Below, piece by piece: positions 44,629-62,462 of a stretch of DNA of 64,000 nt (positions within the stretch are counted from its first letter, which is position 1; every line of letters begins with the position of its first letter). Under the pieces are notes generated by a model. The model did no database searches, was not told the origin of the DNA, and saw only the letters and a program-made list of their open reading frames with translations. The position numbers and the translations under genes are program-made. Source of the DNA: Nocardioides marmorisolisilvae (lineage in GTDB: Bacteria > Actinomycetota > Actinomycetes > Propionibacteriales > Nocardioidaceae); assembly GCF_031656915.1 (NCBI RefSeq), contig NZ_CP134227.1, positions 2,232,001 to 2,296,000 on the forward strand. The letters are read 5' to 3'.

Positions 44629-45852
44629 TCACGCTCGGATCGAGGGCCGAGCATCGAACTCGTCAAGCGCAGCAGCGGCGATCCGCTCGCCGATCAGAAG
44701 GCTTGCGGTCGCAGCAGGCGAGGGGGCATTCAGTACGTGGATCGTCCGAGCGTGCCGTGCGATAACAAAGTCGTCCACCAGGGTTCCGTCACGGTGAACC
44801 GCCTGGGCCCGGACTCCCGAGCTGCAACGGACAAGGTCGGTCGATTTAATGACCGGAACCATCTCCCGAATGCTGCGCACAAACAGCGGCTTCACCAACG
44901 AGCGGGCGATCTCGCCCGCTCCATGCCGCCAAAAACGGCGGACCATTCGCCACACGGCTGGGTCACGTACCAACCCAGTGACGTGACGAGGATCGACATC
45001 TCGCCAGCGGTAGCCGTGCCGAGAGAGTGCAAGTAGAGCGTTGGGCCCCACATGGACCGTCCCGTCCAGTCCTGGTGTGAGGTGGGTCCCCAGGAATGGC
45101 AGCGCCGGATCGGGCACCGGATAGACCGGAATACTCACTAGCGGTCGCGGGGTCGAGCTCAGCTCCGAATACTCGCCGCGGAAGGGCACGATGCGAATGT
45201 TGGGCTGACAGCCACTCATTCTGGCCACCAAGTCGCTCCGCAGACCTGCACAGTTGACCATCACCGCACAACGAAGCTCCCGGTCTTCAGTCGTCACCCG
45301 AACCTCGCCCTCACAAGTAGCCACCTCGACGACTGGTCGGGACACCTGGACGGTGCCACCAAGCGTTTCGACCTCAGCGGCCATCGCGCCGCAGACCAGG
45401 CCGAAGTCGGTGATGGCGGTGCCCTCCACGAACAATGCGTCAACGCCACTGACTTCGGGCTCGAGCTCTGCCAGCTCTGCGCGTGGAAGCGATCGAACGT
45501 TCACGCCGTTGGCTGCGCCCCGGCCCAGGAGTTCGTTCATGCGTTCTAGCTGAGAGCTCCTGGTCGCCACGATGACCTTGCCCGTCTTACGGACGGGCAC
45601 CCCTTGTTCTCTGCAGTACTCGATCATGCGGAGTCCACCCGCCCTGGCGAACTCCGCCTTGAGGCTGCCGGGCCGGTAGTACAGGCCACTATGGATGACG
45701 TTGCTGTTGTGGCCGGATTGGTGGGCCGCGATGGTGGGCTCCGCCTCAAGCACAACGACGCATGTTCCGGGTCGACTCAGCAACACACTCCTTGCTGTCG
45801 CCAGACCGACGATGCCGGCGCCAATGACTACCACATCGGCGACGTCAGACAT
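44629..45852 (-). CDS. FAD-dependent L-2-hydroxyglutarate oxidase-like protein (LhgO)
   Basis: 407 residues from ATG 45852, with GAGG 7 bp upstream; a GTG two codons earlier is also possible. DAO fold: VVVIGAGIVGLATARSVL at the N-terminus, then the LhgO-like block HQSGHNSNVIHSGLYYRPGS near residue 45, NCAGLRSD near 200, and GPNALLALSRHGYR near 270. LhgO oxidises L-2-hydroxyglutarate to 2-oxoglutarate and reduces quinone. Here it ends an operon with a thiolase, SDR, AKR and FMN reductase, so it may act on a related 2-hydroxy acid from the pathway. Confidence 0.85.
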   Translation of the reverse strand: MSDVADVVVIGAGIVGLATARSVLLSRPGTCVVVLEAEPTIAAHQSGHNSNVIHSGLYYRPGSLKAEFARAGGLRMIEYCREQGVPVRKTGKVIVATRSSQLERMNELLGRGAANGVNVRSLPRAELAELEPEVSGVDALFVEGTAITDFGLVCGAMAAEVETLGGTVQVSRPVVEVATCEGEVRVTTEDRELRCAVMVNCAGLRSDLVARMSGCQPNIRIVPFRGEYSELSSTPRPLVSIPVYPVPDPALPFLGTHLTPGLDGTVHVGPNALLALSRHGYRWRDVDPRHVTGLVRDPAVWRMVRRFWRHGAGEIARSLVKPLFVRSIREMVPVIKSTDLVRCSSGVRAQAVHRDGTLVDDFVIARHARTIHVLNAPSPAATASLLIGERIAAAALDEFDARPSIRA

Positions 45853-46492
45853 GTACACGCCTCGCGCACATGAGCGCTGCGAAGTCGAACGCCTGGCTTG
45901 CTACTGTCTCAAGTTGGCCGCGTATAGCGACATCAAGGCACTCGCCTGTTTCGCTGTCAAACACACCCGGACCCGCACCATTCACGGCAACCCCCAGTGG
46001 AGTGGGCCAGGCGCGCAACGCGTGGGCAACGACCCGCAGGGAGTGGAGTGTGGAGACGCTCGCCTGCCACCCGCTAGCTACCGCGATGCATCCAACGGGC
46101 ACGTTGTCCAGGTAGGGCCGCTCGCTGGTACGGAGGTCTTCGACATAGTCGAGAGCGTTCTTGACCATGCCTGACATAGTTCCGTGATATCCGGGCGACG
46201 ACACGAGGAGTGCATCGGCCCGGCGGATCGCGTCGACCAGGGCGCGAGCCGGCGCGGATCTCACGGTGGTTTGCGTGTCGTAGAGCGGGAGCATCAGATC
46301 ACGTCCGACGATGAACTCGACCTCGGCGCCTAGTTGGCGCGCGCGCCCGGCCGAGACTCGAAGAGCCTGCTCTGAACTGGACCCCGGCCGAGTGGATCCG
46401 CCGAGACACAAGACATGTATCGGACGCCCTTCGTACGGCTCGGCAAGGTCGCGGGCCCCGTCCAGAGAGTCGGCCGCTGGTAGGGAAGTCAT
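45845..46492 (-). CDS. NADPH-dependent FMN reductase
   Basis: 215 residues from ATG 46492; a TTG at 46501 would add three residues. Flavodoxin-like fold with LCLGGSTRPGSSSEQALR near the N-terminus (phosphate loop) and LLVSSPGYHGTMSGMVKNALDYV near residue 100, the SsuE/MsuE-type family block. It supplies reduced FMN, most likely to the LLM-class monooxygenase encoded at 59658-60926 in the same putative regulon. It overlaps lhgO by a few bases and follows the aldo/keto reductase within 6 bp. Confidence 0.87.
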   Translation of the reverse strand: MTSLPAADSLDGARDLAEPYEGRPIHVLCLGGSTRPGSSSEQALRVSAGRARQLGAEVEFIVGRDLMLPLYDTQTTVRSAPARALVDAIRRADALLVSSPGYHGTMSGMVKNALDYVEDLRTSERPYLDNVPVGCIAVASGWQASVSTLHSLRVVAHALRAWPTPLGVAVNGAGPGVFDSETGECLDVAIRGQLETVASQAFDFAALMCARRVHV

Positions 46493-46497
46493 GGTTG

Positions 46498-47349
46498 TCA
46501 AAGTTCCTCATCTAGGGCGGCGAGGTCGGAGTCGGACAGCACGAGCCTGGTCGCCTCAATGTTCTCGTCGAGGTGTTCGAGTTGGGACGTGCCGGGTATG
46601 GGAAGGACCACGGGGGATCGCTGGAGAAGCCAGGCCAATGCGACCTGAGCGACAGTGGCGGACTGGCTGCGCGCCACACGCCCGATCACATGCGGAAGAT
46701 CCGCAAGCTTGCCCTGCATCACGGGATACCACGGGATGAAAGCGATCTGGCGCTCCGCGCACATCTCGACCAGTGGTTCGTCGACGCGATCGATCAAGTT
46801 GAAGCGGTTCTGTACCGAGGCAATCGGAGTCAGCGCAAGCGCCTCTTCGAGCTGGCTGCAGCTGATGTTCGAGAGCCCGATGTTGCGAATCTTTCCCGAG
46901 CGTCGCAGATCGGCCAGCGCCCCCAAGGAATCCTCGAATGGAACTGCGGGGTCGACCCAGTGCAGCTGATAAAGGTCGATCGAGTCCACCCGCAGTCGTC
47001 GCAGACTTCCCTCGCAGGCCGCGCGCAAGTGCTCGGGCCGCCCATCGCATCCCCAGTTCCCCTTGCTGTCCCGGGTCCGTCCACCTTTGGTGGCGATCAC
47101 GAGGTCGTCCGGGTATGGATGGAGAGCGTCGGCCAACAGGACCTCGTTCATGTACGGTCCATAGGTGTCTGCGGTGTCTACGAAATTGATTCCGGCGTCC
47201 ACTGCTGAGCGGACCACCGACGTCGCATAGCTGCGGTCCGCAGGCTCACCTAGCCCGCCCGGACCAGTGAGCTTGAAGGCACCGAAGCCGAAGCGGCGGA
47301 CCGTCTGGTCCCCTATCGCGACCTCGCCGGCGAGGGCATTGATCGTCAT
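46498..47349 (-). CDS. Aldo/keto reductase
   Basis: 283 residues from the ATG overlapping the DUF3237 stop. AKR motifs occur in order: FVDTADTYGP (catalytic Asp and Tyr) near residue 57, DLVIATKGG (Lys) near 83 and YQLHWVDP (His) near 125. The NADPH site follows in the C-terminal third (VVLPIPGTSQLEHLDENI). It reduces an aldehyde or ketone, or runs in reverse, in the cytoplasm. The substrate is unknown, but its operon partners point to a catabolic intermediate. Confidence 0.88.
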   Translation of the reverse strand: MTINALAGEVAIGDQTVRRFGFGAFKLTGPGGLGEPADRSYATSVVRSAVDAGINFVDTADTYGPYMNEVLLADALHPYPDDLVIATKGGRTRDSKGNWGCDGRPEHLRAACEGSLRRLRVDSIDLYQLHWVDPAVPFEDSLGALADLRRSGKIRNIGLSNISCSQLEEALALTPIASVQNRFNLIDRVDEPLVEMCAERQIAFIPWYPVMQGKLADLPHVIGRVARSQSATVAQVALAWLLQRSPVVLPIPGTSQLEHLDENIEATRLVLSDSDLAALDEEL

Positions 47350-47774
47350 AGCAGCTCGAACAGGTCGTAGGTCACGCTGGCTCCACTCGTCTTGCCGATG
47401 CCGACGGCCTGGATGCAGTTCAACCACGCATAGTGTTCGTCGCCCGTCTCGAACGTTGCTGCGATCCGTGCATTAAGGAAGCCGCCCGGTTGCGGAATCG
47501 CGATCCCGCCGTAGGTCATCAGGACAACGGCGTTGTCCTCAGTCCTCAGCATGATCCGGGCATCGACCTTCAAGGATCGATCGGTGCGACGAGTTGCCCA
47601 GTCGCCACCTGGTGGGTGGACCGTTCCACGGAGCCGGTGGCCTTCGAAGCTGCCTCCGGTGACCTCGGCGACGATGCGCGAGCCCTGTGGAGCGCCCTTC
47701 AGATAGTGCGTGTCCGGGACGCTGAGCATCGTGACCACAAACAACGGCGCCACATCAAGGGTCGTTGTGGACAT
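47346..47774 (-). CDS. DUF3237-family small protein
   Basis: 142 residues from ATG 47774, with AAGGAG 6 bp upstream. The sequence resembles DUF3237 proteins: SRIVAEVTGGSFEGHRLRGTV near residue 40, VDARIMLRTEDNAVVLMTYGGI near 70 and FETGDEHYAWLN near 110. These form a small beta-barrel that often accompanies catabolic clusters; no reaction is established. It lies between the thiolase and aldo/keto reductase genes with overlaps, so it belongs to this operon. Confidence 0.78.
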   Translation of the reverse strand: MSTTTLDVAPLFVVTMLSVPDTHYLKGAPQGSRIVAEVTGGSFEGHRLRGTVHPPGGDWATRRTDRSLKVDARIMLRTEDNAVVLMTYGGIAIPQPGGFLNARIAATFETGDEHYAWLNCIQAVGIGKTSGASVTYDLFELL

Positions 47775-47785
47775 CGGAATCTCCT

Positions 47786-48949
47786 TCATCCTTTCACCAG
47801 CACATGTGCACTCGACACTGCCGTGTGTCGCTTGATAAGCCCGCCGCCGCATTGGATGAGCGCGACCCGGGGAACATCCAGCTGGCGGCCCCCTGCCGTG
47901 CCGCGAAGCTGCTGCACGGCCTCGTAGGCCTGGGCGAGGCCGGTGGCGCCGATCGGGTGGCCCCTGGCCACCAGCCCGCCGGACGGATTGATCGGCATCG
48001 CACCAGTCAGCTCGGTATGCCCCGTCCTTGCCCACTCCTCTTCGTCGCCGGCGGGGCACAGCCCGCTCTGCACCCAGGAGACCATCTCTCCCGGCGAAGT
48101 CGCGTCATGCAGCTCCGCGAAGTCGATGTCCTCCGGGCCGAGGCTTGCGTGGTCGTACGCCGCCTGAGCCGAGTCTGCATGCGCATCACAGGGCCCGCGA
48201 GCATCGCGCGGGAGGCTGCGCAACGATGATCCCCGGATCTCGATTTGAGGCCCAGTCCCACGGCGCGACGTGACGACTACCGCTGCGGCGCCATCGCTAA
48301 GCGGCGAGCACATGGCTACGGTCAGCGGCGCGAGGACCATACGAGCGGCCAGTGCGGCCTCCACGGAGAGCGCAGTCCGGTGGTGGGCAAGCGGGTTGAG
48401 TTCCCCATTGCTGCGCGCCTTGGCTGCGAGGATGGCGAAGGACTCCGGGCTGACTCCGCGCGTCATCAGCTCAGCGGCGACCAGGGCATAACGATCGATG
48501 AACGGGCTCCGGACGACTTCACTATCGCCGAAGTCCGCGTAGTCCAGGTCGATGCCTCCGCGGAACGCCCGGAAGCTCTTGGTTTTGTCCGGGTGCGTCA
48601 ACTTCTCGCATCCCGCAGCCAACACTGTCTCGTACTGACCGCTGGCGACACTGGCCCAGGCGAGGTGCAGCGCGTTGCCACCAGTTGCGCATGCGTTCTC
48701 GACATTGTTCACAGCGATCGACCCAAATCCCATCTCGTGGGTGACCGTTTCTCCGCGGATGCAGTCCTGACCCCAGATCGCGCCCGCCGTCGAGTTGCCA
48801 AAGAACACTGCCTGGATGTCATCGACTACGGCGTCCGCATCGCCGAGGGCTGAGGTGATCGCGTCGCGCGAGAGCTCTTTGAAGGTCGACTCGGGATGCC
48901 GGCCGAAGGCCGTCATCCCGACACCGGCAATCCTCACTGGTCCGCTCAT
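47786..48949 (-). CDS. Thiolase family protein (SCP2/lipid-transfer type)
   Basis: 387 residues, ATG overlapping the SDR stop. The nucleophile Cys is in NNVENACATGGNALHLA near residue 90. C-terminal blocks HDATSPGEMV, PINPSGGLVARGHPIGATGLAQ (catalytic His) and IQCGGG (second Cys region) follow. This subgroup cleaves beta-keto acyl-CoAs, often branched or sterol side chains. With the acyl-CoA ligase at 50896 it suggests that the substrate passes through CoA thioesters. Confidence 0.88.
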   Translation of the reverse strand: MSGPVRIAGVGMTAFGRHPESTFKELSRDAITSALGDADAVVDDIQAVFFGNSTAGAIWGQDCIRGETVTHEMGFGSIAVNNVENACATGGNALHLAWASVASGQYETVLAAGCEKLTHPDKTKSFRAFRGGIDLDYADFGDSEVVRSPFIDRYALVAAELMTRGVSPESFAILAAKARSNGELNPLAHHRTALSVEAALAARMVLAPLTVAMCSPLSDGAAAVVVTSRRGTGPQIEIRGSSLRSLPRDARGPCDAHADSAQAAYDHASLGPEDIDFAELHDATSPGEMVSWVQSGLCPAGDEEEWARTGHTELTGAMPINPSGGLVARGHPIGATGLAQAYEAVQQLRGTAGGRQLDVPRVALIQCGGGLIKRHTAVSSAHVLVKG

Positions 48950-49791
48950 GCGCGCTGCGCCTCCTCTCGACGTTGTGTGACCGCGACCGGGATGGCATCG
49001 GTGGGCATGCCGCTCGCGAGCTGCCCACCGTCCATGACCAAACACGTTCCGGTGATGAAGCCGGCATCGTCGGAGGCAAGGAAGGCGACCGCAGCGGCAG
49101 TCTCGTATGTCGTGCCTTGACGGCCCATCGGACACTGGCTGCCGCGCCAAGCGCGGGCGACCTCATCGTCGCCCCAGTAGCGGCGAACCATGGTCGAGTC
49201 GATGATCCCCAGCGCCAAGGCATTCGCTCGGATGCCGCGCCTGGCGTATCGGACGCCGAAGTGCCTTGCGACGGCGATGAGACCTGCCTTCGTGACCTCG
49301 TACGACAGAGACGAGCCAGGACTGACTAGTCCAGCAAGGGAGGTCACAAAGACGAAATTGCCGCGGCCACGCGACATCATCGGCTCCAATGCTGCCTGTG
49401 CGGTCAGCCAGTGCGAACGCAGGTTGATTGCTACCGTACGGTCCCACTCCGCCACGCCTTGAACACGTCCGGGTTGCTGGGGGTTGATGGCAACGTTGCA
49501 GACGACGACGTCAAGGGGTCCGAGCTCACGCTCTGCACGGAGCACGACGGCGGTGCAAGCCGCCGGGTCCGCAGCGTCGGACTGTAAGGCCAAGCCTCTG
49601 CCGGGAAGGGCGGCAACGGTTTGCTCCGCCTTGACCAGATCGATGTCAGTCACCGCGACGTCGGCACCTTCGCTGGCCAGGCGCAGCGCGATCGCCCGCC
49701 CGTTGCCCATCGGCAGAACTTCGCCCTCACCCGCGGGGCCGTCAGCGCCTCCACCTAGGACAAGAACCTTGCGGCCGTCAAATCTCTGCAC
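48946..49791 (-). CDS. Short-chain dehydrogenase with extended glycine loop
   Basis: 281 residues from GTG 49791, with GGGAG 6 bp upstream. The cofactor loop is longer than usual, GGGADGPAGEGEVLPMGNGRA instead of TGxxxGIG; part of this variant, with a GNGRA ending, is known from some actinobacterial SDRs. The VCNVAIN block, catalytic Ser in VTSLAG and YEVTKAG (YxxxK) are present. It is the first gene of the SDR-thiolase-DUF3237-AKR-FMN reductase-LhgO operon, directly downstream of the first 18-bp operator. Confidence 0.84.
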   Translation of the reverse strand: MQRFDGRKVLVLGGGADGPAGEGEVLPMGNGRAIALRLASEGADVAVTDIDLVKAEQTVAALPGRGLALQSDAADPAACTAVVLRAERELGPLDVVVCNVAINPQQPGRVQGVAEWDRTVAINLRSHWLTAQAALEPMMSRGRGNFVFVTSLAGLVSPGSSLSYEVTKAGLIAVARHFGVRYARRGIRANALALGIIDSTMVRRYWGDDEVARAWRGSQCPMGRQGTTYETAAAVAFLASDDAGFITGTCLVMDGGQLASGMPTDAIPVAVTQRREEAQRA

Positions 49792-49801
49792 TCCGAACTC
49801 C

Positions 49802-49819
49802 CTAACTAACGTTAGGTAG
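49802..49819. promoter_or_regulatory. Regulon operator copy 1 (CTAACTAACGTTAGGTAG)
   Basis: 18-bp palindrome with a single mismatched pair around the core CTAACGTTAG. It lies 11 bp upstream of the SDR start (49791, minus) and overlaps its ribosome site region. Near-identical copies are at 50833 and 60990. Confidence 0.8.
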
Positions 49820-49859
49820 AACGTAGTCCCAGTCGCGTTCACGGTCAATGAGAGCCACG

Positions 49860-50822
49860 TCACGCCCGTTGAAATCCGGCAAATGGCACAGCGGGGCGAC
49901 CCCTCTTGCCTGGGTTGCACACGAGGACCCGGCCACCAGCAGACAGCAACCCGCTGGCGTCGTCCACGCACGCCGTTGTGATCATCAGCGTCTCGAGGTC
50001 CGCGCCCCCGAAACAGCAGCTGGTGGGATGTGCGCAGGGCAGCGAGATCGCGGTCAGCAGCTCGCCCGCGGGCGAGTAGCACAGCACCGCAGCCCCGCCC
50101 CAAAGCGCTACCCATACGTTGCCATCGCTGTCCACACAGAGCCCGTCCGTGACACCAGGGCCAGGGGGCCGCAGCCACTGGGATCGCGGCCCGACGGTGC
50201 CATTCACGACATCGAAATCGCCAATGTAGATCCATCCGCTGGCACTGTCGGCTAGGTAGATTCGCCGGCCATCCGGGCTCCAGTCGATCCCGTTTGGCAG
50301 GGTGAGGCCGCGCCAGGTCGCCGTCACCGAACGGTCGAGACCAATGCGGTACAGAACTCCGACACCGGGGGTGAGATCGACCGCCATGCTTGAGACCCAC
50401 AGCCGGCCCGCAGCGTCGCACCGCCCATCATTGAGGCGCATCCGCGGTGATTCGCTCGGTTCGACCTGAAGCACGGGCACCACGGAGCCTTCAGGAGTGA
50501 GGCTCGCCAGACGACGCCCTGTGCCGATGAGCAGACTTTCGGACCGCGCCACCGAGACCACGCACAGTGGCGCTCGATCGAGCTGCACGACCTCGAACCC
50601 TGGCACCGCCGACGCGACTTCGTCGACAGCCTTGCCAAGCGCAGCCTCGGTCGCGAACCTGACAGTCCGGCCCACCACATCGATCCATCCGAAGCGAGCA
50701 TGCCCCTGGTCCCACCATGGACTCTCCCCCAGTATGGAGTCCGTGCCCGCACACTCCCACGCCACCCGTTGGATGACGCCTTGGGGCCAAAGCCCGCCGA
50801 CACCACACTGTTCGATCCGCAT
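49860..50822 (-). CDS. SMP-30/gluconolactonase family hydrolase
   Basis: 320 residues from ATG 50822; no clear ribosome site, and a GTG shortly inside could also be used. Beta-propeller blocks are seen: GESPWWDQGHARFGWID near the N-terminus (Glu metal ligand), RMRLNDGRCDAAGRLW in the middle (Asn/Asp ligands), TLPNGIDWSPDGRRIYLADS (Asn) and VTDGLCVDSDGNVWVALWGG (Asp). The family hydrolyses lactones with a divalent metal. A ring-opening role after Baeyer-Villiger-type oxygenation would fit the cluster, as inference. Confidence 0.86.
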   Translation of the reverse strand: MRIEQCGVGGLWPQGVIQRVAWECAGTDSILGESPWWDQGHARFGWIDVVGRTVRFATEAALGKAVDEVASAVPGFEVVQLDRAPLCVVSVARSESLLIGTGRRLASLTPEGSVVPVLQVEPSESPRMRLNDGRCDAAGRLWVSSMAVDLTPGVGVLYRIGLDRSVTATWRGLTLPNGIDWSPDGRRIYLADSASGWIYIGDFDVVNGTVGPRSQWLRPPGPGVTDGLCVDSDGNVWVALWGGAAVLCYSPAGELLTAISLPCAHPTSCCFGGADLETLMITTACVDDASGLLSAGGRVLVCNPGKRGRPAVPFAGFQRA

Positions 50823-50832
50823 AGCGCCTAGC

Positions 50833-50850
50833 CTAACTAATGTTAGGTAG
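50833..50850. promoter_or_regulatory. Regulon operator copy 2 (CTAACTAATGTTAGGTAG)
   Basis: Differs from copy 1 at one base. It lies in the 73-bp gap between the divergent SMP-30 (50822) and acyl-CoA ligase (50896) starts, so one bound dimer could control both. Confidence 0.8.
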
Positions 50851-50895: not shown

Positions 50896-52515
50896 ATGAA
50901 ACCGGTCGGCGACCGCCGTTCCATCCACATCGCGATGCACGATGCTGTCCTTCGGATGCCCGGCGCGCCCTTGGTGACCTTCACCGTGGATCCAGAACGC
51001 ACCTACACACGCGCCGACTTCTGGGAGCTGTCGATGCGCTCTGCAGCCGCGCTGGTGTCGTCGGGGACCAAGGCAGGCGATCGGGTCGTGATCATGACCA
51101 GCAACCGGATCGAGTTCCTTGCGACCTGGACCGGAGCGGTGGCCATCGGTGCGATCCCGGCGCCACTGAACACTTCCTTCAAGGGACACATCCTGCGCAA
51201 CATGCTCGCGCTAGTTGATCCAGTGGTCGTCATTGCGGAAGGCGAGGTTCTCACCCATCTGGCTCCGCAGCTGGTCGCCATCGATTTCTCCGGCACGCTG
51301 GTCGCTGTTGACGGAGTTCGAACGCTGCCACCGGCTACCCAAGGGGTCGGGTCCTCACAGTGCTTGTACGCCGACTGGGCTAACGTCGCACCCCTGCAGG
51401 AGTTCGTCCTCACGCGCCCGTCAGACCCTGGCTTGATCCTCTACACCTCGGGTACGACCGGTGCATCGAAGGCCGTCCTATGGCCGCACAACATGCTGAT
51501 CTCGTTCTCGGAGACGGTGGTCGAAATTATGGACTACCAGCCCGGAGACGTGCTCTACACGGCGCTGCCCCTCTTCCATGGCAATGCCTTGATCTACGGG
51601 TTCTACGCAGCGCTGCTCTGCGATGCCACCAGCGTGATCGCCCCACGCTTCTCGCCGTCGACCTTCTGGGACGACATGCGGCGCTGGGGGGTCACCAAGA
51701 CCTCGATGATGGGGCAGATGGCCGCCATGCTCCACGGCAAAGACTGCGACCCGCGCGATCCCGAGAACCCTGTCGAGCGGATCTGGATCACGCCACCTCC
51801 GGCTGACAGCGCAGATTTCGAGACACGTTTCGACGTACGCCTTGCCCAAGGCTATGGACTCACCGACGTCGGGCTGCCCCTCGGCTCTCCACGCGACCTC
51901 AACTACCCCATGGAGTCCGTAGGACGAGTCAACCCGGGGTGGGAAGTGATCGTTGCCGACGACCACGACCAACCGGTAGGCATCGGCGAGACCGGCGAAC
52001 TCCTCGTCCGACCACTCCTACCCTACACGACGCCCATCGGCTACTGGCGCAACGCGGAGGCAACGATGGAGCTGACCCGCAACCTCTGGTACCACACCGG
52101 CGACTCCCTCTGCCGCGACGAGGACGGGTGGTTCTACTACCTTGGTCGGAAGAAGGACAGCATCCGACGGGGTGGGGAGAACATCGCACCCGACGAGGTC
52201 GAGATGGTTCTGGCGCTCCATCCCGCGATCGCTGAGGTTGGCGCATTCGCGGTGCCCTCCGACCTCACCGAGGATGATGTGATGGTCGCTTTGATCCTTC
52301 ACTTCGACGACGTCGACCTGGAGGAGATCGGCGACTTTGCCGAGGAGAACCTGCCGTTCTACGCAGTGCCGCGCTACTACGACGTCCGCTCGGACCTTCC
52401 TCGCACAGCTACTCACAAGGTACGCCGGGAAGCCCTTCGCAAAACGGGCGTCACGCCGACGACCTGGGATCGCGGTCGAACCAAACGTACACAATCGGTA
52501 ACCGAGAACCGGTGA
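50896..52515 (+). CDS. AMP-dependent acyl-CoA ligase
   Basis: 539 residues, AAGGAA upstream of the ATG. ANL superfamily motifs: ILYTSGTTGASKAVLWPH near residue 180 (P-loop), QGYGLTDVG near 315, NLWYHTGDSLCRDEDGWFYYLGRKKDSIRRGGENIAPDEVE region near 395-430 (TGD and the hinge), and the catalytic Lys region TATHKVRREALRK near the C-terminus. It activates a carboxylic acid to its CoA thioester. It stands alone on the plus strand, opposite the SMP-30 gene under a shared operator. Confidence 0.9.
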   Translation: MKPVGDRRSIHIAMHDAVLRMPGAPLVTFTVDPERTYTRADFWELSMRSAAALVSSGTKAGDRVVIMTSNRIEFLATWTGAVAIGAIPAPLNTSFKGHILRNMLALVDPVVVIAEGEVLTHLAPQLVAIDFSGTLVAVDGVRTLPPATQGVGSSQCLYADWANVAPLQEFVLTRPSDPGLILYTSGTTGASKAVLWPHNMLISFSETVVEIMDYQPGDVLYTALPLFHGNALIYGFYAALLCDATSVIAPRFSPSTFWDDMRRWGVTKTSMMGQMAAMLHGKDCDPRDPENPVERIWITPPPADSADFETRFDVRLAQGYGLTDVGLPLGSPRDLNYPMESVGRVNPGWEVIVADDHDQPVGIGETGELLVRPLLPYTTPIGYWRNAEATMELTRNLWYHTGDSLCRDEDGWFYYLGRKKDSIRRGGENIAPDEVEMVLALHPAIAEVGAFAVPSDLTEDDVMVALILHFDDVDLEEIGDFAEENLPFYAVPRYYDVRSDLPRTATHKVRREALRKTGVTPTTWDRGRTKRTQSVTENR

Positions 52516-52528
52516 TATCGCAGCCTGG

Positions 52529-53137: not shown

Positions 53138-53239
53138 GTGCTGCCTTCCTGTCCTCCGGGGGAGTAGTCCGCGGCTGCTGCGACTCCGCACGTCAACTCA
53201 TCTGGCTGCGGGTGATGCTACCGCAGTCCCAATCGTGGC

Positions 53240-55224: not shown

Positions 55225-56740
55225 GGGACACCTTCCGTCCGCTCATCACATGGCTCAGCAGCTCCTGTTCGGTCCAATCACCAAACGGTCGCATCTCCGT
55301 CATCCTCCCGTGGGAGAATGTAGCGATGACGTCGGCCAGCCCGAAGATCTCATTCGTGTCGGATGAGGCGATAAGTACCGCGACACCGCGATCGGCCATC
55401 TGCCGGATCCGTTGATAGATCTCTGCTCGAGCTCCGACATCGACACCGCGTGTTGGCTCATCGGCGATGAACACCAATGGGTCGATTCCAGTCCACTTTG
55501 CGAGTGTGACCTTCTGCTGATTGCCTCCGCTGAGGGTGGAGATGGGACTGGAGAGCCGTTCGGGGTCGAGGGCGAACTGCAGCGCGGCTGCACACGCTTG
55601 CTCCGACTCTTGTCGCTGGGAAACCCAGCCGCGACGCGCAACTCGGTCGATCCATGGCGATGAGATATTCCGCAGGACCGATAGGCCAGAGAAGATTCCG
55701 TCGGATTTCCGGTCCGAAGAGCAGTAGGCGATCCCTGCCCGAATGCCGTGGGTCCGAGAGCGGAGGTTCAATGGCGAACCCGAACCGAGCGTCACCTGAC
55801 CGGCTACTGGTGGGCGACAACCCGCAACCGCTTGGACAGTCGCGCTCGCACCGCTGCCGAGCTGCCCTGTAAACCCGACAATCTCTCCTGCCCTTAGCTC
55901 GAAGGAGACGTCAGCCCCGATAGCGGTCGCCTTCAACCCAGTCACCCTCAGCCGCGTTTCATGGCAAGGCACACCCGCGGCGCGTGCGGGAAACATGTCA
56001 TCCAGGCGTCGTCCCAGCATCAGAGCCACCACGCCGCCTACATCGGTCGCGCTCGTCTCGACGGGCGGCAACGCGACACCGTTGCGCATCACTTGGACCC
56101 GGTCGCACACGGTGAATACCTCGTCGAGGCGATGTGTGACGTAGACCACCGCCATCCCGGAGTCGGCCAGATCTCGCACGAGAGGGAGGACTCTCGCGAT
56201 CTCCGCCTCGGAGAGGGCCGCGGTCGGCTCGTCCAAGATCACCACACGCGCGTCCCGCACAACGACACGTGCGATCTCCACGAGCTGACGCTCACCGACG
56301 CTAAGCTCACGCACCGCGATCCCTGGGTCGACCTGTCCCAGGCCCACCCGCTCGAGGGCACCGAGTGCGCTTCGTTCGAGTTTGCGTCGGTGCCAGATCA
56401 GCCCACTGTCGAGCCTGCCCAAGGCGAGGTTCTCAGCGACTGACATGCTCGGCACAAGACTGAACTCTTGAGTGACGATCGCTACGCCCGCTGCCTTGGC
56501 TTCCGCCGCAGACCTGAACTGCACGCGACGGCCGTCAAGCTCGATGAATCCGCTGTCGGGTTGCTGCAGTCCCGCGACACACTTGACCAATGTGCTCTTC
56601 CCAGCTCCGTTCTCTCCGAGAAGCGCAAGCACCTCACCCGCACGCACCTCAAGCGACACCTCGCTCAGTGCCACCACCGAGCCGTACTGCTTCGACACAT
56701 TGTCGATCCGAAGCCTCGACGAGGACGCCGCTCGGGTCAT
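55208..56740 (-). CDS. ABC importer ATPase with two nucleotide-binding domains, RbsA-like
   Basis: 510 residues with AAAGGAG 6 bp before the ATG. The first NBD is canonical: LLGENGAGKSTLVK, VTQEFSLVPS, signature LSVGERQLVEIARV and VVILDEPTAALSEAE. The second has FTGQLGSGASATVQA, which lacks the Lys of Walker A, and LSGGNQQKVTLAKW with FIADEPTRGVDVGA. A weakened P-loop in one half is usual in this family. It powers the importer together with the two permeases and the lipoprotein. Confidence 0.92.
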   Translation of the reverse strand: MTRAASSSRLRIDNVSKQYGSVVALSEVSLEVRAGEVLALLGENGAGKSTLVKCVAGLQQPDSGFIELDGRRVQFRSAAEAKAAGVAIVTQEFSLVPSMSVAENLALGRLDSGLIWHRRKLERSALGALERVGLGQVDPGIAVRELSVGERQLVEIARVVVRDARVVILDEPTAALSEAEIARVLPLVRDLADSGMAVVYVTHRLDEVFTVCDRVQVMRNGVALPPVETSATDVGGVVALMLGRRLDDMFPARAAGVPCHETRLRVTGLKATAIGADVSFELRAGEIVGFTGQLGSGASATVQAVAGCRPPVAGQVTLGSGSPLNLRSRTHGIRAGIAYCSSDRKSDGIFSGLSVLRNISSPWIDRVARRGWVSQRQESEQACAAALQFALDPERLSSPISTLSGGNQQKVTLAKWTGIDPLVFIADEPTRGVDVGARAEIYQRIRQMADRGVAVLIASSDTNEIFGLADVIATFSHGRMTEMRPFGDWTEQELLSHVMSGRKVSHADDV

Positions 56741-56808
56741 GACCTTCTCCTTTGACGTCGTTTCGGGTCAGGCGCGCCCGAGCGCGGGCACCTGATCCGA
56801 ATAGGGGT

Positions 56809-57942
56809 TCAGTCCAGAGGGCAGTTCTGCGAAAGCGGTACGCCCCACACATTCTGAGTCAAGGAGGCAGTATCTGCAGAGAACACCGGCGGGTTGTCGA
56901 GAATATTGATCTGCGCCGGCGCCTTGTCCGATGTCGAAGGTGCCTTCTCCGAGTAATGGAGAGTAGCTTCACCGGGAGCGATCTTCTTTCCGGATGCGAA
57001 ATAGGCACTAATCACCGAGACCATGCCGGCACCCTCAACGTATCCAGACTGCAGTCCGGTCGCATAGACGGTCTTCGACTCGAGGACCGACGCCGGCCCA
57101 CCACAGTTGCCCGAGACCATCCAGACGTCCTTGCCTGGCTCAAGCCCGTTCTGTCGCAGTGCGCGCGCGATCCCGTTCGCAGTGTCGTCATTCTGGGTAA
57201 CGATGAAGTCAAGTTTCGACTTCCACTTCGGGATCAGCTGAGATGCCATCGCATATGCCTTTTCGGCGTCGGAGCAGCAGTCGTGGTTCTCCAACATGTT
57301 GAACGGAGCCGCCTTAGTTGCATCGACAAAGCCAGCGTAGCGTGCCTGTGCCTGAGCAGTGCCCGGGACTGAGCCGATGAAGAGGACGTTGCCCTCCGTG
57401 CTGTGAAGCTTGGTGCCACGGGCGTTGAGCTCGCCCCGCAGATGCATCAGGCTCTTGCCTGCGGTCTCGCCCACCAGCGCGTCACTCGGGCCGACGTACG
57501 CCTTGACGTAGTCCCAGCCTCCCTCCGCCACCTTCTGATTGATCTGGAACGTGGGCGCGATGCGCGAGAGCTGGGCGGCCTGGTTCACACCCGCCTTGGG
57601 ATCCAGCGGAAAGATCATGATCGCGGCCGGCTTCTCTCCGCTCGCCACGAACTGCTGGACCTGCTGTCCCTGCTGAGCCGCATCCAGATTGTTGAGGACG
57701 AACTTCACGGTATAGCCGGCTTGTTTGGCATAGTCCTTGATGCCCTTGAACTGTGCAATGAGGTAGCTGATTCCAGCAGAAGAAGGGGCGAAATAGACGA
57801 TCTCCCTACTGGCCTTGCCATTTCCACCTCCAGTGGCGGCGCCGCTGCCGCAGGCGCTCGATGCGAAAGCGACGCTCACCAGGAGAGCCAATATTTTCGC
57901 AATCCCGCCGTACTTATGGTTTGGTCGACTAATGGTCCGCAC
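56809..57942 (-). CDS. ABC importer substrate-binding lipoprotein (periplasmic-binding type 1 fold)
   Basis: 377 residues from GTG 57942 (AAAGGAG 6 bp upstream). The N-terminus has a basic stretch, a hydrophobic helix and the lipobox ASSAC near residue 33, so the mature protein is lipid-anchored outside the membrane. The rest looks like a type 1 binding protein: AIMIFPLDPKAGVNQAAQL near residue 110, LDFIVTQNDDTANGIARAL near 250 and a sugar-binding-like Asn/Asp pattern. There is a CC pair (HDCCSDAEKA) and further cysteines that may form disulfides. Cargo cannot be read from the sequence. Confidence 0.87.
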   Translation of the reverse strand: MRTISRPNHKYGGIAKILALLVSVAFASSACGSGAATGGGNGKASREIVYFAPSSAGISYLIAQFKGIKDYAKQAGYTVKFVLNNLDAAQQGQQVQQFVASGEKPAAIMIFPLDPKAGVNQAAQLSRIAPTFQINQKVAEGGWDYVKAYVGPSDALVGETAGKSLMHLRGELNARGTKLHSTEGNVLFIGSVPGTAQAQARYAGFVDATKAAPFNMLENHDCCSDAEKAYAMASQLIPKWKSKLDFIVTQNDDTANGIARALRQNGLEPGKDVWMVSGNCGGPASVLESKTVYATGLQSGYVEGAGMVSVISAYFASGKKIAPGEATLHYSEKAPSTSDKAPAQINILDNPPVFSADTASLTQNVWGVPLSQNCPLD

Positions 57943-57994
57943 TCTGGTCTCCTTTGATTGGCATTTCTTACTCTTTCGAGGGGTTGGCGACACA

Positions 57995-58010
57995 ACAGTC
58001 GAGCGACTGT
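57995..58010. promoter_or_regulatory. 16-bp palindrome upstream of the ABC importer genes
   Basis: ACAGTCG and CGACTGT separated by AG, in the 100-bp gap between the SDR stop (58043) and the binding-protein start (57942). Its sequence is unrelated to the CTAACGTTAG sites, so it may be an operator for another regulator, or a hairpin that reduces read-through from the LLM operon. Confidence 0.45.
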
Positions 58011-58042
58011 GTGATTCGACAGCACAGAGATGCGTGGCTTGA

Positions 58043-58831
58043 TCAGAATGCGACGACGCCATGTCCGCCCCCGAGAACGAGATCGTGACCGGTGACGAAC
58101 GAGGAGTCATCACAGGCAAGGAACACCACTGCGGTAGCGATCTCCGCGGGTAGCGCGCGTCGCTTCATCAGCCGGTGCGATGCCGTGATCGCGTCGTTCA
58201 CCCGCGCGGAGGCGGGAGCGCCATCGGGGGTACGCCGGGCGAGCGGCGTGTCGGTCACCCCAGGCGAGATCGAGTTAACCCGAATATCTGGGCTGTAGTC
58301 GCGGGCCATGGAGATAGTGAGTGCCCTAACACCCCCCTTTGCGGCGTGGTAAGCAGCGAGGGCAGGAGCACCCACAGTCGCGAAGGTGGAACAGGTATTG
58401 ATGATGCAGCCCGATGACTGGCGCAACATCTGCGGCAGGACTGCCCGCGATCCCAAGAACACCCCGGTGAGGTTCACCGCCAGCGATCGGTTCCACTCGT
58501 CGAGCGTCAACTCGTGAGCCGCGCCGTAAACGCCAACGCCAGCGTTGTTGTGAAGCACATCTATCTGGCCGAATCGGTCAACTGTGCTCCTGGCCATCCG
58601 CTCCGTGTCCGCCTCGTTGCTGACATCGGCTTGAACAGCAAGCGCCATGGAGCCTGCTTCAACCAGGCAAGCCGCGGTGGCCTGCGCCGAATCCTCGTCG
58701 ATGTCCACGCACGCCACCGCTGCACCCTCACGCGCCAGCGCCACCGCGGTAGCCGCGCCGATGCCCGACCCGGCGCCAGTCACGATCGCCACTCGCCCAG
58801 CGAGCCGCAGCCACGCCTGCCCACCGCTCAT
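58043..58831 (-). CDS. Short-chain dehydrogenase/reductase
   Basis: 262 residues, ATG overlapping the hydrolase stop. Classical SDR: AIVTGAGSGIGAATAVAL near residue 15, VLHNNAGVGVYG near 90, catalytic Ser in NTCSTFATVG near 145, YHAAKGG (YxxxK) near 160 and ISPGVTDTPLA. It is the third gene after the LLM monooxygenase and the alpha/beta hydrolase. It probably oxidises an alcohol made or released by these enzymes. Confidence 0.88.
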   Translation of the reverse strand: MSGGQAWLRLAGRVAIVTGAGSGIGAATAVALAREGAAVACVDIDEDSAQATAACLVEAGSMALAVQADVSNEADTERMARSTVDRFGQIDVLHNNAGVGVYGAAHELTLDEWNRSLAVNLTGVFLGSRAVLPQMLRQSSGCIINTCSTFATVGAPALAAYHAAKGGVRALTISMARDYSPDIRVNSISPGVTDTPLARRTPDGAPASARVNDAITASHRLMKRRALPAEIATAVVFLACDDSSFVTGHDLVLGGGHGVVAF

Positions 58832-59661
58832 GCTGAGGCCACCATCGCGGCAATGCGCTCGGCGACTACAGCGGGTTGCTCGTAGACAAGCATGTGCGAG
58901 GCGTCCTCGATGACCTCGAGCTCAGCGTGTGGAAGCGCATCCAACCAGTGCTCGGAGAGTGCAACCGGGAGGACTCCGTTGTTCTTGCCCCACAAGATCT
59001 TGACCGGGGTCTCCCGGCTCCCACACAGCCGGTAGAGGCGGTGGGTGATGCCCGTGTCTGGGAACGGAAACATAAAGCGGCTGGCGCTGCCGAGCACCTC
59101 AGCGCGTCGCACCCCAGCCATTGCTCGCTCGTGGGGATTGGCCGGCTTGGGAAAGAGAGCAAGTGACAGCGAGCCCCCCGGCTCAGCCAAGATGTGTTCG
59201 AGGACATCGCGCTGAAGCAGAGCGAAGGCGTCTGCGCCGCCGATCTTGTCCTTCCACATCCCGACAGGATTGACAAGAAGCAGACCGCGGACGCGCTGCG
59301 GCTGAGCGACTGCCATCTCGGCGGCAAGTGCGGCACCCAGCCCGTGCCCGCCAATGAGAACGCGCTCCGAGATGTCCAGTTGATCAAGCGCATGCCAGTA
59401 AGCGATGGCAAGCTCGCCCAGCGATCCAAGACGAGCAACTTCTTCGGTAACACCCCAACCCGGATGATGAGGCAGTAGGAGTCGCAGGCCGGCCAACGAT
59501 TCAGAGCTCGTCGCGAGCTCGGGGACCTGCTCGAAGGTCCCCCACTCGCCATGCAGCCACACGACGGGTCGCCCGGAACCAGTTCCGAACTGAGCCACGT
59601 GCAGAGCGGCCGCAGCCGGACCGAGATCCGTGCGGAGGGTCGCTTCGTTCGCCGCAATCAT
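58828..59661 (-). CDS. Alpha/beta hydrolase
   Basis: 277 residues from the ATG overlapping the LLM oxygenase stop. VVWLHGEWGTFEQ near residue 35 gives the HG oxyanion motif, and LIGGHGLGAALAAEMA near residue 100 is the nucleophile elbow. In the elbow the expected nucleophile position is GHGLG, so the usual Ser (GHSLG) is replaced by Gly. The C-terminal His is in IEDASHMLVYE. Loss of the nucleophile points to a non-hydrolytic or altered mechanism, as in cofactor-independent dioxygenases or lyases of this fold. Otherwise it looks like a C-C hydrolase or esterase family member. Confidence 0.82.
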   Translation of the reverse strand: MIAANEATLRTDLGPAAAALHVAQFGTGSGRPVVWLHGEWGTFEQVPELATSSESLAGLRLLLPHHPGWGVTEEVARLGSLGELAIAYWHALDQLDISERVLIGGHGLGAALAAEMAVAQPQRVRGLLLVNPVGMWKDKIGGADAFALLQRDVLEHILAEPGGSLSLALFPKPANPHERAMAGVRRAEVLGSASRFMFPFPDTGITHRLYRLCGSRETPVKILWGKNNGVLPVALSEHWLDALPHAELEVIEDASHMLVYEQPAVVAERIAAMVASA

Positions 59662-60926
59662 GCTGCACCGCCCATCGAACCCGTGCGAGCCGCATCCGGC
59701 ACGCCGCGTTCCGACAGATCTAGCGGCTTGGGCCACCAACGGTGCTCATAGCCAGAGAACTTGTTTTCAAGGCCAGGCAGCACCTTCGATGTGAAAAGAT
59801 CGATGTTCTGTCGTGCTAGCTCGTCCGGCATGTCGCCGAGGTGCAGCAATGAGATCCAGTTGCCGATATTGAGTCGGTCCGCCGCGTCGGAGAGCCGATC
59901 CCTGACGGTGCTTGGGCTGCCCGCGATCACGATGCCCGAGTCGACGAACTCGTCCCAGGTCAAGTCACGTGCTGCGGCGAAGGTGTCGCGTCTTGCGCCA
60001 CCGGGGGCATCCTTGGGCGGTACCGCAGCGCGCAACGAGTCGAGGCTCTTGTATCCGGGCGCTTCGGCATAGCCGGGATACACATGGCTGAGTCGTTGAT
60101 AGAAGTATTTGACGTGCGGCTCGTAGAGCCGGCGCGCCTCTTCGTCTGTGTCAGCTACCAGAATCGTCTGCACCATGCCAGCGCGGTACGGGTTGCGATC
60201 GCGACCCATCGCATCGACCCTCGCCCAGTACTTCTTCATGTTCGCCTCCGCGAAGTCGGACCCGAAGAAGGAGAGGAAGGTGTAAGGGATGTCGTGCTTG
60301 ACCGCGAAGTCAAACGTCTCTACGGATCCGCTTCCGGGAGCCCAGATTGGAGGATGGGGTTTCTGCAAAGGGCGCGGCCACGGGTTGACGTAGCGAAGTT
60401 TATTGAACTCACCGTTGAACGAGAAGACGTCGGGCTCTGTCCACGCGCGCTTGATGAGCTCAAAGCCCTCGTTGTAACGCGCGCGCGTAGTCCGCGGCTC
60501 AACACCGTACACGAAGTTCGTGTCCTGGCTCGTGCCCATCGGAAAACCGGCAATGATCCGGCCACCGGTGAGAACGTCCAGGAGTGCCGTCTCCTCAGCG
60601 ATCCGGATGGCGGGGTTATAGAGCGGGATCGAGTTGCCCATCACGAGGAGTGCCGATTTCGACGTGCGGCGGGCGAGGGCGGCCGTCATCAGTCCGGGGT
60701 TGGAGACCAGCCCGTATGCGTTGTTGTGGTGCTCATTCAAGCCCAAGCCATGGAACCCCGAGGCGTCGGCCAGTTCGAGCTGATTCAGGTAGGTGTTGTA
60801 GAGCCCATGCACTCGTCGCGAGTCTCCGAGCGACGCAGGGAGATCAACCCACGAACTCCGATACTTCTCCGAGAAGTCTGCAGGGAGGGCGTCGAAGGGC
60901 ATGAAGTGGAAGTAGATGAATCGCAT
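59658..60926 (-). CDS. LLM-class flavin-dependent monooxygenase
   Basis: 422 residues. Luciferase-like TIM barrel: GLGLNEHHNNAYGLVSNP near residue 60, MGNSIPLYNPAIRIAEETALLDVLTGGRIIAGFPMG near 95-130, and PWPRPLQKPHPPIWAPGSGS near 185. The C-terminal IVIAGSPSTVRDRLSDAADRL is the usual end of the family. It needs reduced FMN and O2; the FMN reductase at 45845 is a likely partner. It is the first gene of its operon, 64 bp from operator copy 3. Candidate reactions are Baeyer-Villiger or hydroxylation; the substrate is unknown. Confidence 0.9.
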   Translation of the reverse strand: MRFIYFHFMPFDALPADFSEKYRSSWVDLPASLGDSRRVHGLYNTYLNQLELADASGFHGLGLNEHHNNAYGLVSNPGLMTAALARRTSKSALLVMGNSIPLYNPAIRIAEETALLDVLTGGRIIAGFPMGTSQDTNFVYGVEPRTTRARYNEGFELIKRAWTEPDVFSFNGEFNKLRYVNPWPRPLQKPHPPIWAPGSGSVETFDFAVKHDIPYTFLSFFGSDFAEANMKKYWARVDAMGRDRNPYRAGMVQTILVADTDEEARRLYEPHVKYFYQRLSHVYPGYAEAPGYKSLDSLRAAVPPKDAPGGARRDTFAAARDLTWDEFVDSGIVIAGSPSTVRDRLSDAADRLNIGNWISLLHLGDMPDELARQNIDLFTSKVLPGLENKFSGYEHRWWPKPLDLSERGVPDAARTGSMGGAA

Positions 60927-60989
60927 AGAGGATGACCTCGAAGTCCATGGTTGAGTCGCTGGCTGGCCCGCGTGAGTGGGAACCGTACT

Positions 60990-61007
60990 ACCTTCCTAAC
61001 GTTAGGT
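60990..61007. promoter_or_regulatory. Regulon operator copy 3 (CTTCCTAACGTTAGGTCA)
   Basis: It shares the CTAACGTTAG core and GGT flank with copies 1 and 2. It lies between the divergent LLM monooxygenase (60926) and nitroreductase (61048) genes, so it can control both operons. Confidence 0.78.
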
Positions 61008-61047
61008 CAACGCTTAAGATGGCCACCAAGCCATGACTGGAGATGTG

Positions 61048-61686
61048 ATGACAACCTTGCTGCCCCTGACCCCCGACGAGCTCCTGACCACTACGCGGGC
61101 CGTACGCAAACGCCTCGATCTGGACAGACCGGTGCCCCGGAGCGTGGTCGCCGAATGTGTTGCGGTCGCGGCGCAGGCGCCGTCCGCGAGCAACGTGCAG
61201 CCATACCGCTTCATGGTGGTTGACGCCCCTCCGGTTAGAGCCGCAATTGCCGATTTGTACCGATCTGGATATGACCGGTACAACGGACCACGCACGAGTC
61301 CGAACGATCAGGAGCGGCCTGAACACCCACTACAGAGCTCCTCGGACCACCTGCGCGATCACATGCATAACGTCCCGATGCTGGTCATCCCCTGCTTTAT
61401 GGGCAATCTGGCGGAGCCCCGGTCATCAGCCCTTCGGGCGGGCCAGTGGGGCTCCATCCTTCCGGCTGTGTGGAGCTTCATGCTCGCCCTGCGCGCTCGG
61501 GGGCTTGGCAGCGTGTTCACGGCGGTCCACCTCGCACATGAGGGCGAGGTAGCCGAGATGCTCGGGATCCCCTATCCCGATGTCTCACAAGTCGGGCTGC
61601 TACCCGTGGCCTATACGCGGGGAACAGACTTCAGGCCGGGGACGCGCGCTGATCCTGGGCAGACAACCCGCTGGAACCACTGGTGA
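61048..61686 (+). CDS. Nitroreductase family flavoprotein
   Basis: 212 residues from ATG 61048 (GGAG 5 bp upstream); an in-frame ATG at 61033 would add five residues. Motifs: TTTRAVRKRLDLDRPV near the N-terminus (FMN phosphate contact), AQAPSASNVQPYRFMVV near residue 45 and a C-terminal GLGSVFTAVHLAHEGEVAEMLGIP near 155. The family reduces nitro groups, enones or flavins with NAD(P)H. It may be a second source of reduced flavin or a reductase of a pathway intermediate. It overlaps the C-N hydrolase gene by 4 bp. Confidence 0.87.
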   Translation: MTTLLPLTPDELLTTTRAVRKRLDLDRPVPRSVVAECVAVAAQAPSASNVQPYRFMVVDAPPVRAAIADLYRSGYDRYNGPRTSPNDQERPEHPLQSSSDHLRDHMHNVPMLVIPCFMGNLAEPRSSALRAGQWGSILPAVWSFMLALRARGLGSVFTAVHLAHEGEVAEMLGIPYPDVSQVGLLPVAYTRGTDFRPGTRADPGQTTRWNHW

Positions 61687-62462
61687 GGGACAGCGCCAAC
61701 TCGCCCCTGTCGGTCACGCTGGTCCAGGCGGCGGCAGGGCTCGTCCCCGAGGCAAACCGTGATCGCCTGAAGGAACTAGTGGCGGGTCGTAGCGGCTTGG
61801 TTGTCCTTCCTGAGGCGTACGCCCGCGATTTCGGTAGGGCCGGGACGCAAGTTGGCCCGTTCGCGGAACCGCTCGATGGGCCGTTCGTCGAGGAGTTAAC
61901 CAAGGTGGCAGGAGACGCCACCGTCGTGGCCGGGATGTTCGAGGTCAGCGGTGACCCGGAGCGCCCATTCAATACCCTTGTCGTGGTCGATCGCGCGGGA
62001 CTGCGGGCGTCGTATCGTAAAATCCACTTGTACGACGCCTTCGGCTATCGCGAGTCCGATCGGTTGAGCGCTGGCGTCACTTCACCAGTAAGCGTCGAAG
62101 TGGGTGGCATCACCGTCGGACTAATGACCTGCTATGACCTGCGATTTCCAGAACTCGGACGAGCGCTCGTCGACCGAGGCAGCGAACTGATCGTCGTATC
62201 TGCCGCCTGGCTCGACGGGCCGCACAAGATCCGGCACTGGTGGGCGCTACTAGCGGCGCGAGCAATCGAAAATACCGTCTACGTAGCCGCCGCCGCCCAA
62301 CCGGCACCACGCTACGGCGGCTATTCGGCGCTGCTCGACCCTTACGGCCAGACCCTTGCCTCGGCCGGTCCCGGCGAGGGCCAAGTCATCGGCGAGGTCG
62401 ATCAAAGGGTCATCGCGCTGGCCCGATCGGAGAATCCCTCGCTCAACAACCGACGGATGTGA
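61683..62462 (+). CDS. Carbon-nitrogen hydrolase (nitrilase superfamily amidase)
   Basis: 259 residues from the GTG overlapping the nitroreductase stop. The Glu-Lys-Cys triad is visible: Glu in LVVLPEAYARD near residue 40, Lys in SYRKIHLYDAFG near 117 and Cys in GLMTCYDLRFPELGRAL near 148, followed by AAWLDGPHKIRHW. It hydrolyses an amide or nitrile. It suggests that the pathway substrate, or an intermediate, has a C-N bond, or that the enzyme repairs a side product. Confidence 0.9.
   Translation: MRDSANSPLSVTLVQAAAGLVPEANRDRLKELVAGRSGLVVLPEAYARDFGRAGTQVGPFAEPLDGPFVEELTKVAGDATVVAGMFEVSGDPERPFNTLVVVDRAGLRASYRKIHLYDAFGYRESDRLSAGVTSPVSVEVGGITVGLMTCYDLRFPELGRALVDRGSELIVVSAAWLDGPHKIRHWWALLAARAIENTVYVAAAAQPAPRYGGYSALLDPYGQTLASAGPGEGQVIGEVDQRVIALARSENPSLNNRRM

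Follow-up and report, generated by a model that had tools for sequence, protein, structure and literature searches.

The analyzed window, a stretch of 64,000 nucleotides from Nocardioides marmorisolisilvae (contig NZ_CP134227.1), carries at positions 44629–62462 a block of 18 genes that encode an RbsABC-type importer, a luciferase-like flavin monooxygenase (LLM), a flavin mononucleotide (FMN) reductase, an acyl-coenzyme A (CoA) ligase, an SCP2-type thiolase and a TetR regulator resembling KstR2 (Table 1). Each of the 18 genes is open from start to stop, and 97.3% of the block is taken up by them. The overlapping operons described in the original prediction for this DNA were borne out, as 10 of the 17 gene junctions overlap, by 4–17 bp, and five transcription units can be drawn: sdr1-thiolase-duf3237-akr-fmnR-lhgO (unit 1, minus strand), sgl alone (unit 2, minus), acs alone (unit 3, plus), llm-abh-sdr2-sbp-atp-perm1-perm2-tetR (unit 4, minus, with internal gaps of 100, 68 and 48 bp) and ntr-nit (unit 5, plus). 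According to the analysis in Pfam, all 18 products match the expected families, including every family named earlier: DAO/LhgO, FMN_red, DUF3237, thiolase, two short-chain dehydrogenases (SDRs), SGL lactonase, AMP-binding ligase, one TetR, two BPD_transp_2 permeases, a two-domain ABC ATPase, Peripla_BP_4, Bac_luciferase, nitroreductase and CN_hydrolase. That list was correct as given but omitted an aldo/keto reductase (AKR) and a gene with the alpha/beta-hydrolase (ABH) fold. Pfam detected, among the 18 genes, neither a CoA-transferase nor an acyl-CoA dehydrogenase nor an enoyl-CoA hydratase. The GC content of the block is 0.633, compared with 0.720 for positions 1–41500 of the window.

A single palindrome, CTAACGTTAGGT, fronts the genes of the block. 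When up to two mismatches were allowed, six strand-matches corresponding to three sites were found in the window; the mean for shuffled sequences was 0.50, and 0 of 100 shuffles reached six. At one mismatch or fewer, the whole genome of 4,228,226 bases contains only these three sites, and the reversed-pattern control gave none. Two of the sites have the core CTAACGTTAGGT, and the other has CTAATGTTAGGT, which differs from it by one change. The three candidate operators cover the starts of all five transcription units as drawn, in line with the earlier claim that one palindrome is shared by the block genes. No site with two or fewer mismatches was detected in the window scan before tetR or sbp; these two genes would therefore be served by the llm promoter or have separate promoters.

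Table 1. Features of the catabolic block and its surroundings (positions in the window; distances from the candidate operators were measured to the start codons used in this gene list).
Feature	Position	Strand	Evidence or remark
Left att repeat, tRNA-Tyr 3' half and downstream sequence, 116 bp	41462..41577		Identical copy at genome 2441675-2441790
IS21-family element, left edge of cluster	41980..44590	-	Ends approximate, set by eye
lhgO, L-2-hydroxyglutarate oxidase family	44629..45858	-	NCBIfam equivalog, 494.8 bits, cut-off 299
fmnR, FMN reductase (PF03358), presumed LLM partner	45845..46501	-	FMN_red, 92.3 bits
akr, aldo/keto reductase	46498..47349	-	Pfam; D, Y, K, H motifs by pattern
duf3237, DUF3237 protein	47346..47789	-	Pfam
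thiolase, SCP2-type	47786..48949	-	Cys, HDA, GHP, Cys motifs; best solved relative BbsB
sdr1, short-chain dehydrogenase, conserved thiolase neighbour	48946..49791	-	Pfam
Candidate operator 1, core CTAACGTTAGGT	49806..49817		14 bp before sdr1
sgl, SMP-30/regucalcin-type lactonase	49860..50822	-	Regucalcin Glu, Asn, Asn, Asp positions kept
Candidate operator 2, core CTAATGTTAGGT	50837..50848		14 bp before sgl, 47 bp before acs
acs, AMP-forming acyl-CoA ligase	50896..52515	+	Closest NCBIfam PRK06155, 433 bits, below cut-off 722
tetR, KstR2-like regulator	52529..53191	-	Pfam; matches to KstR2 structures
perm2, RbsC-type permease 2	53240..54232	-	Pfam BPD_transp_2
perm1, RbsC-type permease 1	54229..55224	-	Pfam BPD_transp_2
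atp, RbsA-type double ATPase	55208..56740	-	Pfam two-domain ABC ATPase
sbp, RbsB-type substrate-binding protein	56809..57942	-	Pfam Peripla_BP_4
sdr2, short-chain dehydrogenase	58043..58831	-	Pfam; motifs kept
abh, alpha/beta-hydrolase fold	58828..59661	-	Ser to Gly (GHGLG), Asp to Asn (WGKNN), His kept
llm, luciferase-like flavin monooxygenase	59658..60926	-	Bac_luciferase, 137 bits
Candidate operator 3, core CTAACGTTAGGT	60996..61007		69 bp before llm, 25 bp before ntr
ntr, nitroreductase-family flavoprotein	61033..61686	+	Pfam
nit, carbon-nitrogen hydrolase	61683..62462	+	E, K, C motifs; best solved relative nitrilase homologue 2
IS256 transposase remnant	62522..63079	-	85-87% to Nocardioides/Pimelobacter plasmid copies
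XerC/D-type tyrosine recombinase, right edge of cluster	62976..63929	-	Profile match

The tetR product aligned with the KstR2 structures 4w1u (E 2.2e-29, residues 29–218 of 220) and 4w97 (E 3.1e-29), while the top structure match, ahead of both, was the unnamed regulator 2ibd (E 6.6e-35). PMC3068626 proposes that a 15-gene regulon is under KstR2 control via the motif AnCAAGnnCTTGnT, which occurs three times in intergenic, divergent promoter regions near kstR2. Its effector is given as HIP-CoA, which FadD3 of that regulon produces, in PMC5380842. The KstR2 motif (CAAGnnCTTG) was found in none of the five promoter stretches of the block, and its single copy in the block, at 58993, lies inside abh. 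Since the block operator is unlike this motif, the regulator should be called KstR2-like, not KstR2. It would repress all five transcription units, and by analogy with KstR2, the inducer is likely an acyl-CoA made by the acs product. Another KstR2-like TetR stretch (32% identity) is present in the same genome at 693440–694063 (L049), with two internal TGA codons flagged.

Relatives of the block were sought with the thiolase (E 1e-100) and SDR1 (E 1e-55) in 394 genomes of the class each, which yielded the own genome and genomes G076, G080 and G417; G139 was added by a search of 49 genomes from the genus of G080. The sdr1 and thiolase genes are adjacent in all four relatives, and each locus also has a TetR homologue (about 21 kb off in G076), a CoA ligase, an SDR, a branched-chain-type binding protein, an acyl-CoA dehydrogenase and an FMO/BVMO-type flavoprotein (about 28 kb off in G417). 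In two of the four, G080 and G139, the DUF3237 gene stands beside the thiolase gene with the TetR gene next to it. Identities to the block proteins were 48–62% for the thiolase, 55–61% for SDR1, 34–35% for DUF3237 and 36–39% for TetR. The flavoprotein of G076 scored 219.7 bits against the model of pentalenolactone D synthase (PtlE-like; cut-off 1100), and G417 has a 67% identical one. Within 30 kb of sdr1 lie all nine distinct CAAGCRCTTG sites of G076, 7 of the 11 in G417 and 3 of the 4 in G080. The reversed-pattern control outnumbers it genome-wide in these three genomes, so the argument depends on the clustering, taken without a positional control, rather than on the number of matches. In G139, of which 34 kb were covered, KstR2-like sites are located at L058:14730 and L059:11899; a second DUF3237 homologue, 39% identical to that of the block, was observed near the latter palindrome (L059:11462–11788).

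The remaining components vary between these clusters. The LLMs of G080, G076 and G417 score above cut-off for F420-type families (TIGR03617, TIGR03619), that of G139 is 75% identical to the LLM of G080, and the ligases of the three relatives compared are 25–28% identical to the acs product. In a departure from the original prediction, the cluster is a mosaic: its importer, LLM and ligase are no orthologues of the corresponding proteins in the relatives, and what is shared is the lower pathway and the regulator. A shared oxygenase step, suggested by the LLM genes of the relatives, was rejected because the LLMs belong to different subfamilies. As to whether the same gene set recurs in other genomes, the sdr1-thiolase pair, TetR and ligase co-occur in all four relatives, but the full 18-gene set was found at no other locus examined. 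Among plasmids, SDR1 had no match at E 1e-35; the binding protein matched 8 records at 30–33% identity, DUF3237 16 records and the acs product 7 records. The thiolase matched 119 records, and three loci examined among the 30 records listed (H25, H26 and H29) contained no match to the DUF3237 protein or LLM of the block.

The LLM itself was found in one of 197 genomes of the family (the own genome; E 1e-60) and in seven of 394 genomes of the class, the own included (E 1e-90), with no match in the phage collection at E 1e-20. A named-genome scan gave two loci, in Pseudonocardia acaciae and in an Acetobacteraceae metagenome-assembled genome; at neither does the remainder of the cluster lie within 10 kb. 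Sixteen plasmid records matched, and the contexts of four (H1, H3, H7 and H9) were examined. In NCBIfam the FMN-type model TIGR04020 ranked first (83.8 bits) and the F420-type TIGR03619 next (72.1 bits), with no model above cut-off. A tentative FMN assignment draws on the FMN reductase encoded in the regulon and on annotated flavin reductases beside LLM homologues in loci L005–L007. The LLM and the FMN reductase presumably work together. The best of five matches in the PDB search was 7bip (E 8.7e-21), labelled simply as a luciferase-like monooxygenase, and the AlphaFold2 model, built from a four-sequence input, was poor (mean pLDDT 48.8). Precedents for Baeyer-Villiger activity in LLM enzymes are the progesterone LLM (PMC12239570) and the diketocamphane enzymes (PMC6352141).

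An LLM homologue adjoins an ABH homologue in 11 of the 12 related loci examined (L003–L008 and L028–L033), and in L008 a 45% identical homologue of fmnR is a neighbour of both the LLM gene and a gene annotated as alpha/beta hydrolase. The locus without the ABH homologue is L004, that of the Acetobacteraceae genome, where two tandem LLM genes are followed by a FAD_binding_3 protein (L004:10001–13835). In the alignment all 11 LLM-linked ABHs have Ser at the nucleophile elbow and Asp at the acid position, and the block abh has Gly and Asn at these positions, with His retained and the frame intact. The changes mean that the protein has either lost its function or taken on a new one. They speak against a plain oxygenase-esterase cassette and leave the SMP-30 lactonase as the candidate lactone opener; abh as the esterase of a plain Baeyer-Villiger cassette is weakened as a candidate, two of the three triad residues being lost.

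The motifs of the thiolase and ligase are kept, as are those of the lactonase, amidase, AKR and SDRs; in regucalcin, the Glu, Asn, Asn and Asp residues concerned are the metal ligands. The best model for the nit product was deaminated glutathione amidase (200.9 bits, below the cut-off of 355). As for DUF3237, PMC12607616 and PMC12997858 describe PinX, a protein containing this domain whose deletion mutant accumulates lariciresinoate, as related to PhcG and PhcF; PinX and these homologues are reported to be decarboxylases.

The block lies at the left end of a 168-kb genomic island in tRNA-Tyr, a setting that the original prediction overlooked. The island is bounded by the two copies of the 116-bp repeat; the second copy, 168,213 bp away, overlaps the intact tRNA-Tyr, beside which an open reading frame (ORF) with a Phage_integrase domain ends (L024:6191–7699; 40.1 bits, cut-off 27.1). 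The GC content is 0.664 for the island, 0.721 for the left flank in the window and 0.692 for the right flank (12 kb). The IS21-family element at the left edge comprises IstB (42059–43168) and an ORF with a Mu-transposase C-terminal domain (42877–44421). A DNA-level plasmid search with the block returned 14 records, with every match confined to the IS256 remnant. The same island has a second catabolic cluster just to the right of the window (L015:4188–16943, genome 2298188–2310943), with a branched-chain-type ABC importer, an enoyl-CoA hydratase, an ADP-forming acyl-CoA synthetase-like protein, an SDR, a regulator whose match to the NanR model falls short of the cut-off, and an acyl-CoA dehydrogenase that comes closest to acryloyl-CoA reductase, likewise below cut-off. 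No palindrome core was found in the 160 kb from genome position 2294001 on, which include this cluster.

That the block is a regulon is quite probable. That it is, more specifically, a KstR2-type TetR regulon on the island for the breakdown of one imported small molecule by a ligase/LLM/thiolase route is, in our estimate, somewhat on the probable side. The earlier claim of an importer and catabolism regulon with CoA chemistry is supported by the three operators at five units, the KstR2-like TetR, the kept ligase and thiolase motifs, and the sdr1-thiolase pair, which a TetR homologue and a CoA ligase accompany in all four relatives. For nitrogen in the substrate, raised as a possibility in the original prediction, the hints come only from the Nit2-like and nitroreductase-family proteins. 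The steps of the route are given here in a proposed order. The RbsABC-type importer would bring the substrate in, and SDR2 would form a ketone. The LLM with the FMN reductase could then insert one oxygen in the Baeyer-Villiger fashion to give a lactone or ester; such a step, on a cyclic or branched ketone, is conceivable, with doubt slightly prevailing. The SMP-30 lactonase would open this product, AKR and LhgO would adjust hydroxy and oxo groups, and the acs ligase would make the CoA ester; SDR1 may oxidise a 3-hydroxyacyl-CoA, which the thiolase would then cleave. DUF3237 may decarboxylate an intermediate, and Ntr-Nit may process an amide or side group. The acs product, or a later CoA ester, would lift the TetR repression, as HIP-CoA does for KstR2.

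Several observations weigh against this route. The block contains no acyl-CoA dehydrogenase or enoyl-CoA hydratase in Pfam, so thiolysis may need genes located elsewhere; abh has lost two triad residues; neither tetR nor sbp is preceded by an operator at two or fewer mismatches; and the block operator, CTAAYGTTAG, differs from the KstR2 motif. Among the loci examined, the complete gene set was seen only here, and the binding protein was found in one of 394 class genomes (the own genome) at E 1e-50. BLASTP at E 1e-10 gave no match between the block LLM and those of G080, G076 and G417, and the model scores of the block LLM do not decide between the FMN and F420 types. LLM enzymes also perform hydroxylation, desulfonation and amide cleavage.

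An alternative is catabolism of an N-heterocycle or amide, in which the LLM and FMN reductase would open an N-containing ring, as RutA and pyridine monooxygenases do, the Nit2-like amidase would act on an oxo-dicarboxylic monoamide to release ammonia, and LhgO would feed a 2-hydroxy acid to 2-oxoglutarate. The kinship of the nit product to nitrilase homologue 2 with its E, K and C motifs kept, the lhgO score above the family cut-off, and operator 3 shared by ntr-nit and llm agree with it. However, the LLM scored only 28.4 bits against the NtaA/DmoA model (cut-off 279.7), with no RutA among its 17 model matches, the thiolase/ligase half and the clusters of the relatives indicate CoA-bound carbon skeletons, and Nit-family enzymes are also widespread as repair enzymes; we consider this alternative unlikely. 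Similarly improbable is a KstR2 paralogue regulon for steroid- or terpenoid-like ring remnants, in which a bicyclic or side-chain acid would be degraded much as HIP is. It would account for the KstR2-like TetR of the block and relatives, the clustering of CAAGCRCTTG at the loci of G076, G417 and G080, and the PtlE-like flavoprotein of G076 with its counterpart in G417, but the three families absent from the 18 genes, the sugar-type importer, the differing operator and the genome-wide excess of the reversed-pattern control in three of three genomes do not fit it.

The insertion-sequence pieces (IS21 and IS256) and the recombinase flanking the block, together with nearest relatives that differ among its component genes, could point to a chance pile-up of transposon-delivered catabolic fragments with no common pathway. 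This appears very unlikely given that the three operators are exclusive to block genes, that junctions overlap start to stop with 18 of 18 frames open, and that the order sdr1-thiolase(-DUF3237) is kept at other loci. It is also doubtful, yet worth naming, that the block represents an undescribed pathway type, common in outline to a family of clusters that have a KstR2-like switch and an SDR-SCP2-thiolase(-DUF3237) core but can exchange their oxygenase fronts. In the version seen here, the ABH-fold partner of the LLM would have given up serine-hydrolase chemistry and would do something else, such as non-hydrolytic cleavage or product channelling.

The original prediction knew of no described pathway with such a gene set, and consistent with this, none appeared among the papers listed in the literature search; most subscription papers lay outside its coverage, which makes this weak evidence of absence. 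The same holds for the combination, operator and island setting, which were not found described in the literature covered, the parts and logic being known. The block offers a defined, testable orphan regulon: it has one regulator and three exclusive candidate operators, and the product of its ligase may act as inducer, so that a single reporter could screen candidate substrates. If the reading of a KstR2-type TetR regulon is true, KstR2-like control would reach a family of unassigned catabolic clusters, and a DUF3237 protein, from a family with few assigned reactions, would gain a place in a CoA-dependent pathway.

Among known systems, the KstR2 regulon for HIP catabolism in mycobacteria and Rhodococcus shares with the block a KstR2-group TetR, three palindromes in divergent or promoter regions, and a regulon that joins a CoA ligase with a thiolase and SDRs. 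The block differs in its operator (CTAAYGTTAG instead of AnCAAGnnCTTGnT) and SCP2-type thiolase, in the added LLM, DUF3237, LhgO, lactonase, amidase and RbsABC importer, and in that none of its 18 genes matched the CoA-transferase, acyl-CoA dehydrogenase and enoyl-CoA hydratase families of the HIP pathway genes (ipdAB, fadE, echA20). The type II Baeyer-Villiger monooxygenases (diketocamphane monooxygenases and the progesterone LLM of Caenibius tardaugens) likewise combine an LLM-family enzyme with a separate flavin reductase; for the block LLM, Baeyer-Villiger activity is putative. The modules of LLM and alpha/beta hydrolase, often with a flavin reductase, for example on plasmids of Mycobacterium branderi and Rhodococcus rhodochrous BX2, have LLMs 35–50% identical to that of the block, but their 11 ABHs keep Ser and Asp; genes nearby include a catechol 1,2-dioxygenase in L007 and a dioxygenase with maleylacetate reductase in L006. 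The clusters of G080, G139, G076 and G417 have a branched-chain-amino-acid-type importer, an F420-type LLM, an FMO/BVMO-type flavoprotein, acyl-CoA dehydrogenases and a KstR2-type operator, unlike the block, and share with it the sdr1-SCP2-type thiolase pair, the KstR2-like TetR, a ligase, an SDR, an ABC importer and some LLM.

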